Shown here piece after piece: positions 14,055 to 39,607 of a stretch of 64,000 nucleotides of DNA. Positions within the stretch are counted from its first letter, which is position 1. The number at the start of each line of letters is the position of its first letter. The DNA is from Bradyrhizobium algeriense (lineage in GTDB: Bacteria; Pseudomonadota; Alphaproteobacteria; Rhizobiales; Xanthobacteraceae): contig NZ_JAZHRV010000001.1 in NCBI RefSeq assembly GCF_036924595.1, positions 4,464,001 through 4,528,000 on the forward strand, written 5' to 3'. The position numbers and the translations under genes are program-made. The notes under the pieces were generated by a model, which had not been told where the DNA came from, did not search any database, and saw only the letters and a program-made list of their open reading frames with translations.

Positions 14055-14069
14055 CGCTTGTGTGCCGAA

Positions 14070-14108
14070 CTCTCTCCACGTCATTGCGAGCGAAGCGAAG
14101 CAATCCAG
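14070..14108. repeat. Left copy of 39-bp inverted repeat framing the GIY-YIG gene
   Basis: This 39-base segment is the exact reverse complement of 14522-14560. Its core (cattgcgagcgaagcgaagc) also recurs in the paaC-paaB gap near 39524-39607. It starts 16 bases past the otnC stop. Confidence 0.85.
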
Positions 14109-14171
14109 GGGCCACAGAAAAACTGATTGCTTCAGAGCTAACGCTCCCCACAACGCCGACGGAGAGATCGG

Positions 14172-14459
14172 ATGAAACAGCCCTGCGTCTACATCATGGC
14201 GAGCCGCCGCAACGGAACACTCTATACCGGCGTGACGAGTAACCTCCCAAAACGAGCTTTCGAACATCGCGAAGGGCTGGTCGCGGGGTTTTCAAGGAAG
14301 CACGCGTGCAAGCTTCTGGTTTGGTACGAACTTCACGGCAGCATGATCGAGGCCATTACCCGCGAAAAACAAATCAAGGCAGGCAGCCGCGCGAAGAAGC
14401 TGGCGTTGATTGAGAGTCATAACCCCAGTTGGAAGGATCTTTACGGCGATCTCATTTGA
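14172..14459 (+). CDS. Small GIY-YIG endonuclease-like protein (YhbQ type)
   Basis: A 95-residue single-domain protein. It carries the GIY-YIG signature as VYIMAS (residues 6-11) and LYTGVT (17-22), followed by the conserved Arg28 and an EH pair, and later REKQIKAGSRAKKLALI. Standalone proteins of this size are common and poorly characterised; some act on branched or damaged DNA. GGAGAGA upstream supports the start. It is framed by two inverted copies of a dispersed repeat (14070-14108 and 14522-14560), which suggests that the gene and its repeats may form a mobile or repeat-processing unit. That role is inference. Confidence 0.88.
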   Translation: MKQPCVYIMASRRNGTLYTGVTSNLPKRAFEHREGLVAGFSRKHACKLLVWYELHGSMIEAITREKQIKAGSRAKKLALIESHNPSWKDLYGDLI

Positions 14460-14521
14460 GTTCGTCATTTCGCGGAGCAATAAGCTACGACGCCATCCAG
14501 ACCGTCTCTGCCGTGAAATTT

Positions 14522-14560
14522 CTGGATTGCTTCGCTTCGCTCGCAATGACGTGGAGAGAG
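14522..14560. repeat. Right copy of 39-bp inverted repeat framing the GIY-YIG gene
   Basis: Exact reverse complement of 14070-14108. It lies between the GIY-YIG stop codon and the livF stop codon, 20 bases from the latter. It could also form part of a terminator between these convergent genes. Confidence 0.85.
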
Positions 14561-14580
14561 CTCGCCCTTCACGGCAGCAG

Positions 14581-39523: not shown

Positions 39524-39607
39524 TCGTCATTGCGAGGAGCGAAGCGACGAAGCAATCCAGACTTTCTTTGCGGCGCGATGGATTGCTTCGCTGCGCTCGC
39601 AATGACG
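39524..39607. repeat. Palindromic repeat pair inside the paa operon (paaC-paaB gap)
   Basis: Two inverted copies (about 39524-39560 and 39579-39607) of the same repeat core found around the GIY-YIG gene. They fill the 114-base gap between paaB and paaC, while the other gaps in the paa unit are short. In mRNA they would form a strong hairpin that could change the PaaB:PaaC ratio. Confidence 0.8.

Follow-up and report, generated by a model that had tools for sequence, protein, structure and literature searches.

The window, by which we mean the whole 64,000-nucleotide stretch of Bradyrhizobium algeriense DNA that was analysed, contains a short intergenic unit on which two genes converge, an aldolase-type gene and a livF-type ABC gene as named from their translations. 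Within the unit lies an open reading frame for a protein of 95 residues, whose sole Pfam match is the GIY-YIG domain (PF01541; 50.4 bits against a cut-off of 22.6). A sequence-only reading had placed this gene between exact inverted repeats of 39 bases, which we can confirm for the innermost 39 nt of the arms; the full arms in the window are 43 nt long and 98% complementary, with one mismatch and a spacer of 413 nt. Degenerate inner repeats, recognised by eye, suggest that the gene may sit between two REP pairs (Table 1). The upstream side would then be a decayed head-to-head REP pair, and a sister copy (L152) retains the CAATGACG end of the inner upstream REP.

Table 1. Features of the GIY-YIG unit and of the related gene-less repeat pair in the window
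Feature	Position	Strand	Basis
Upstream inverted arm	14066..14108	+	inverted-repeat search and motif match
CGTC-tagged REP in upstream arm (CGTC tag, ATTGC/GCAAT stem, CCAG tail)	14079-14108	+	
Putative degenerate inner REP copy, upstream side	14123..14161	-	by eye
95-aa GIY-YIG nuclease gene	14172..14459	+	ORF, Pfam, alignment, model
Putative degenerate inner REP copy, 3' of gene	14463..14500	+	by eye
Downstream inverted arm	14522..14564	-	inverted-repeat search and motif match
CGTC-tagged REP in downstream arm	14522-14551	-	
Gene-less head-to-head pair of the window REP, between paa genes	39525..39607	.	motif match, folding

The repeat core CATTGCGAGCGAAGCGAAGCAATCC, allowing up to three mismatches, occurs three times in the window, at 14082 (+), 14524 (-) and 39580 (-, with one mismatch), and the recurrence of the core inside the paa operon that had been noticed earlier holds, in the form of a head-to-head pair between paa genes, as named from their translations. 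Across the 8.1-Mb genome, which is a single contig, there are 158 copies, 79 on each strand. Chance or a simple palindrome was rejected as the origin of this pattern, because the core was absent from 100 dinucleotide shuffles of the window, the reversed core pattern had no match in the 8.1-Mb genome, and control windows scored lower. Among 30 sampled copies, 18 are accompanied within 60 nt by a copy on the opposite strand (15 distinct pairs, all head-to-head); for the other 12, the motif used revealed no partner. The pair in the paa operon folds into a single long hairpin (z -5.6, -28.4 kcal/mol). A single window REP folds no better than its shuffles (z -0.02), in which the REPs of two related loci (L140 and L099) differ from it; its stem has only 5 bp and a long loop, with ATTGC/GCAAT followed by CCAG.

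The window repeat fits the published superfamily of CGTC-tagged REPs, to judge from an unpaired terminal CGTC tag, a complementary stem starting with AT, an unpaired CCA tail and many dispersed copies that are mainly head-to-head dimers. The consulted part of the description of this superfamily gives stems of 8-9 bp, remarks on odd loops in CGTC-1 of Bradyrhizobium, and counts dRS3 of Neisseria and RPE-4 and RPE-6 of Rickettsia among the members (Di Nocera 2013, PMC3733652). What the two have in common, as far as that part goes, is the CGTC (or TGTC) tag, the AT-starting stem, the CCA tail, the head-to-head dimers and a centre in the Alphaproteobacteria (PMC3733652). The same excerpt states that no dedicated transposase was found for CGTC-tagged REPs (Di Nocera 2013, PMC3733652), whereas the repeats described here frame a GIY-YIG gene.

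The protein has the features of an intact GIY-YIG nuclease. In an alignment of 34 of the 39 sequences tried (all except L082, L095, L101, L104 and L106), Y18, R28, E65 and N84 are invariant and Y7 is nearly so, and we take this Tyr/Tyr/Arg/Glu/Asn set to be the catalytic residues of GIY-YIG enzymes. The structure model (pLDDT 96.7) has the GIY-YIG fold. When solved folds were searched, only a UPF0213 protein came below E 0.001, followed by Slx1 at E 0.013 and other GIY-YIG folds. UPF0213 proteins (1zg2, 1ywl) share the fold and the size of the window protein, and none of the open-access papers among the matches listed connected UPF0213 with repeats; the likeness to Slx1, a nuclease of branched DNA, is weak and its activity serves as a hint. 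GIY-YIG homing endonucleases such as I-TevI and I-BmoI have the catalytic domain and a probable link to DNA mobility in common with the window protein, but the latter consists of 95 residues without a separate DNA-binding domain and is framed by hairpin repeats. Two other identities were rejected: PADLOC gave no match to a described family of defence genes, and a search of 50,697 phage records at E 1e-10 gave none that would mark the gene as phage-borne.

Relatives of the gene were chosen by protein similarity alone, and 80 of at least 413 confirmed ones were used; by their record titles they belong to Alpha-, Beta- and Gammaproteobacteria, Nitrospina, Nitrospiria, Desulfobacteraceae, Planctomycetota and one cyanobacterium. 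A locus was called positive on both sides when a tagged hairpin lay on the + strand upstream and on the - strand downstream, each within 300 bp of the gene. By this rule the tagged hairpin (CGTC, with TGTC or CCTC allowed) flanks the gene on both sides in 56 of these 80 relatives, on one side in 18 and on neither in 6, and the hairpin density elsewhere in the same 80 loci is 0.25 per kb, or 0.008 per kb in reversed sequence. Additional REP copies in opposite orientation also lie near many of the 80. Independently of the motif, an inverted repeat from flank to flank reached at least the 99th percentile of 589 control windows in 62 of the 80. These controls, random windows of related loci, gave a maximum inverted-repeat score of 14; the copy closest to the window unit among the 80 (L035) scored 36. 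Five of the six motif-negative loci (L049, L065, L095, L096 and L098) nevertheless scored above all 589 control windows, and one (L106) did not. In the paralogue regions of 15 genomes, a score of at least 14 was reached in 34 of 40 cases, against 4.6% of 745 cross-genome pairings. A second motif scan of 151 pooled units found the hairpin on both sides in 88, on one side in 40 and on neither in 23, a count in which some hairpins look doubtful (for example 3' of L110). In compact units the hairpins often end 5-30 nt from the gene start and stop. UvrC genes, which carry the same domain and served as a control, had an inverted repeat in 1 of 16 cases; four further family members found via Pfam had one in two loci (L252, L267) and none in the other two (L263, L269). 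The check suggested by the sequence-only reading, whether related copies are flanked by the same repeat, thus has a positive outcome for most of the 80 relatives, in which the type of repeat varies with the type of protein, and we regard it as almost certain from these comparisons that the GIY-YIG gene and the tagged hairpin are linked.

Six loci from a plasmid collection add to this picture, as inverted repeats were found in four of them (Azospirillum lipoferum, Sinorhizobium meliloti pSymB, Rhizobium sp. CIAT894 and Neisseria gonorrhoeae), and the Planktothrix and Photobacterium loci had no inverted repeat. The N. gonorrhoeae gene lies inside an array of 16 dRS3 motifs in 3.3 kb. Two of the 'plasmid' records of this species (NZ_CP119140.1 and NZ_CP119142.1, 2.17 Mb) have a size that makes them look like chromosomes. 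The A. lipoferum gene (L217, AZO_p3) lies between sufB and sufC, and since these two genes are usually adjacent, an operon insertion is likely. The Planktothrix agardhii gene (L219, plasmid p1), which has no inverted repeats, lies between an MmeI restriction gene and the DISARM gene drmA. Three loci (L116, L118, L119) are truncated. L118 and L306, from one genome (G061), have GIY-YIG stretches of 291 nt that are 99% identical and lie on two contigs; one of the stretches is broken by further repeats, and an assembly artefact or a strain mixture is possible there.

The repeat type changes together with the protein, also within single genomes. In the window's genome there is a second such gene (L001) with a different inverted frame of 47 nt, whose repeat has 10 genome copies with up to three mismatches, two of them at the gene, and paralogues with different stems were found within G396, G200, G159, G241, G127 and other genomes. 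For the pairing analysis we used the 128 of 151 units with a detected hairpin and at least 70 residues, and for the Mantel test 99 non-redundant ones; protein and repeat distances correlated with a rho of 0.52, and none of 999 permutations was as high. The nearest protein from another genome predicted the repeat better than same-genome paralogues did in 17 cases, equally well in 6 and less well in 5 (n=28), or 16, 6 and 5 without L035, which duplicates a G200 locus. We could show from these sequences that protein lineage and hairpin sequence covary. The residue that tracks the repeat class best is number 71, which follows the catalytic Glu65 and lies in a turn joining two helices, being Gly with GCGAG stems in 57 of 60 units and Trp with other stems in 65 of 67 (94 of the 128 units were used in one analysis and 127 in the tree analysis). 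Because its class switches no more than 4 times along the tree (median p 0.5), we consider this residue a lead and not independent evidence.

The consensus of Br-REP1 of Bradyrhizobium, CCGGAATCTCGAGATTCCGG, lies within the frame of L203 in G200, and a Br-REP2-like type is present in L202 and L206, which carry GTCATTCCGGGGCG...CCCGGAATC, with CTCGGAATC in one arm of L206 (PMC5082802). In the portion of that study drawn on here, Br-REP1 and Br-REP2 are described as 3'-UTR repeats and no enzyme is named (Hahn 2016, PMC5082802). The sole PF01797 (Y1/RAYT-like) match in the window's genome (L215, G000:C1:1132095-1132385) is framed by a 47-nt inverted repeat with GTAGGGTGGG, and no window-type CGTC repeat occurs in its 3.3-kb locus. 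This RAYT-like gene was therefore rejected as the mover of the window repeats in this genome, as its own repeat differs.

The sites of the units differ between genomes. In total, 29 loci (the window, L001, and the 27 loci L035-L060 and L083, whose record titles mostly name Bradyrhizobium) fell into 10 site groups, or 9 for the 28 loci without L001, and these counts are upper bounds because diverged flanks can hide identity. One of these loci (L055), titled 'Frankia sp. RB7', has its site in common with Bradyrhizobium loci and is probably misnamed or contaminated. One genome (G055) carries three units of about 0.5 kb that are homologous only within the unit and have unrelated flanks. Terminal inverted repeats of 66-79 nt were found in L294, L295, L297 and L298; the edges CTTCGTC and GACGAAG are present on both sides in L297 and L298, and in L296 most of the left repeat is gone. 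Junctions read by eye showed no target duplication. Two copies in another genome (G171) have about 140 nt in common outside the unit and, because of this, may be duplicates of a larger piece.

Comparison of orthologous sites revealed occupied, gene-less and empty states. For the window site, 117 genomes were searched and 30 loci taken, 25 of them with both flanks. Among these 25, the gene is present in 3 (the L147 copy with an in-frame stop, by eye), the pair without the gene in 4 (L146, L155, L162 and L169, by eye) and neither in 18, and here the unit looks as if it had been inherited rather than recently acquired (window, L035, L051, L147). At the paa site, 25 same-genus loci inspected by eye had the pair in 11 cases (some decayed), another repeat in 11, nothing in 2 and a short remnant, CGTCATTGATGACG, in one (L230). 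For the L297 and L298 sites, 61 genomes were searched and 30 loci taken each, with interpretation confined to rows whose flank matches do not overlap. The L297 site had a unit match of at least 400 nt in 5 of 30 loci (L297 included) and one of 50-55 nt in 2 of 30; the L298 site had the full unit in 4 of 30, 179 nt in one and 53-55 nt in 3, and the remaining loci among the 30 per site had no unit match. Sites with a single repeat, which the sequence-only reading had suggested looking for, do exist, as clean solo hairpins occupy the L297 site in L321 and the L298 site in L351 and L353, where relatives hold the full unit. These three hairpins and the CGTCATTGATGACG remnant look collapsed, with full units or pairs in relatives at the same places. 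The gene is neither mostly repeat-free nor confined to one locus, the outcomes named earlier as speaking against a linked unit, given the 9 site groups and the dispersed units of G055. The GIY-YIG unit has, on the evidence of these alignments, very probably been dispersed as a whole.

A relationship was also found at the level of whole genomes. The gene was detected, by a match at E 1e-8, in 119 of 398 Pseudomonadota genomes, and at least 20 REPs were counted in 40 of the 119 genomes with the gene against 14 of the 279 without it (odds ratio 9.6, p 5e-13, a value uncorrected for kinship because related genomes were pooled). With a cut-off of E 1e-20, the counts were 37 of 100 and 17 of 298, with related genomes likewise pooled. 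The median number of REP copies was 11 with the gene and 3 without it, for one repeat pattern in the 398 genomes, several of which have hundreds of matches to it. By this single pattern, 79 of the 119 gene carriers have fewer than 20 REPs, and one genome (G287) has 145 REPs and no detected gene; in the 14 REP-rich genomes without the gene, it may have been lost or have diverged. Some gene copies among the matches listed contain in-frame stops.

The unit resembles the RAYT/TnpA-REP systems (REPtrons, REPINs) in that a small nuclease gene is framed by dispersed palindromic repeats, head-to-head pairs occur, the repeat family tracks the enzyme lineage, and gene-less copies outnumber genes, features of RAYT systems that are in part described in PMC3733652. 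The REPtron trait of a gene flanked by REPs that are dispersed in the genome was found for the window unit and for L001. Unlike RAYT, the enzyme is a GIY-YIG protein and not an HUH/Y1 tyrosine transposase, and neither Pfam nor the model fold of the window protein revealed a Y1/HUH transposase. The repeats also differ, with a CGTC tag and a CCA tail here and a GTAG tag in RAYT repeats, and in the window's genome the RAYT-like gene goes with a different repeat. The sequence-only reading had proposed a RAYT-like unit of repeats and nuclease built on a GIY-YIG enzyme, and the flanking and the pairing support this, with a mobilising role of the enzyme that we infer. The unit is probably a pair of CGTC-REPs with a nuclease gene of its own on board, and would thereby be the GIY-YIG counterpart of the RAYT/REP pair. 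Because enzyme versions match hairpin versions across many bacteria, the nuclease is a strong candidate for the missing REP-spreading partner, and we lean towards the view that it performs the mobilisation itself. In the mechanism that we propose, the protein would recognise the hairpin of its own family, as a single strand or as a cruciform, and a cut or nick at the hairpin base near the CGTC tag would start mobilisation. To our knowledge, the GIY-YIG domain does not rejoin strands; host repair or replication would yield new gene-bearing or gene-less pairs. Gene-less pairs would be the non-autonomous form, as passengers, and solo hairpins would be a product of collapse.

The best rival is that the REP pairs spread by other means and that a free-standing GIY-YIG homing endonuclease cuts gene-less pairs and is copied into them by recombination. 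GIY-YIG enzymes are indeed known as homing endonucleases, a gene-less pair occupies the site of the window's pair-plus-gene in G419 (L146), and the window's genome has 158 repeat copies and one gene framed by that repeat. However, such homing need not produce covariation of protein and repeat across many families, nor need it make gene carriers richer in REPs, and the G055 units lie in unrelated flanks; we therefore consider this parasite unlikely. It is more improbable still that the protein is a host nuclease of the Slx1/UvrC type, which resolves or trims REP hairpins at replication and which, with its gene kept nearby, does not mobilise these repeats. A weak resemblance to Slx1 and UvrC in fold and profile agrees with this, as do the solo hairpins and the CGTCATTGATGACG remnant, which resemble hairpin collapse, but the gene is patchy (119 of 398 genomes) and occupies differing sites, some copies among the matches listed have in-frame stops (L147 by eye), and separate paralogues have different repeats, so that the pattern looks selfish rather than like housekeeping. 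That the gene is a passive neighbour, beside which another transposase inserts repeats or which merely has terminators around it, would agree with the location of the unit between convergent genes and of REPs mostly 3' of or between genes (consulted part of PMC3733652), but is very improbable given the orientation and closeness of the hairpins, the cognate pairing, the UvrC controls and the dispersal of whole units.

A second small GIY-YIG subfamily, scoring 33-64 bits to the first, was often observed beside or running into repeats of another superfamily, CTTCGACAAGCTCAG / CATCCTGAGGAGC (L251, L253, L254, L258, L260, L266 and L268, from G024, G214, G127, G323, G376 and G301; also L261 and L265). 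This motif was found at 7 of 12 genes of the second subfamily, at 0 of 4 genes belonging to a third small type and at 0 of 16 UvrC genes, and inverted repeats from flank to flank in 4 of the 12 (L260, L261, L265, L266). By eye, some C-terminal tails of the second subfamily look repeat-encoded. No literature linking GIY-YIG genes with REPs was found in open-access papers among the matches listed.

Returning to mobilisation by the nuclease, we tentatively put forward a wider proposal, of which we are less confident than of the nuclease's part in mobilisation: CGTC-REPs could be spread by a large stand-alone GIY-YIG family acting on its own hairpin, REP(+)-gene-REP(-) units of about 0.35-0.55 kb could be among the smallest autonomous mobile elements, with GIY-YIG as the sole enzyme, and the second GIY-YIG subfamily may serve another repeat superfamily. 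CGTC-tagged REPs are widespread, and their mobiliser was left open in 2013, according to the part of the description consulted (PMC3733652); the cognate nuclease is a named protein candidate for it. If this is true, the arrangement of a hairpin with a small nuclease would have arisen at least twice, with unrelated enzymes, and there would be a role for genes that are annotated only as 'GIY-YIG nuclease family protein'.
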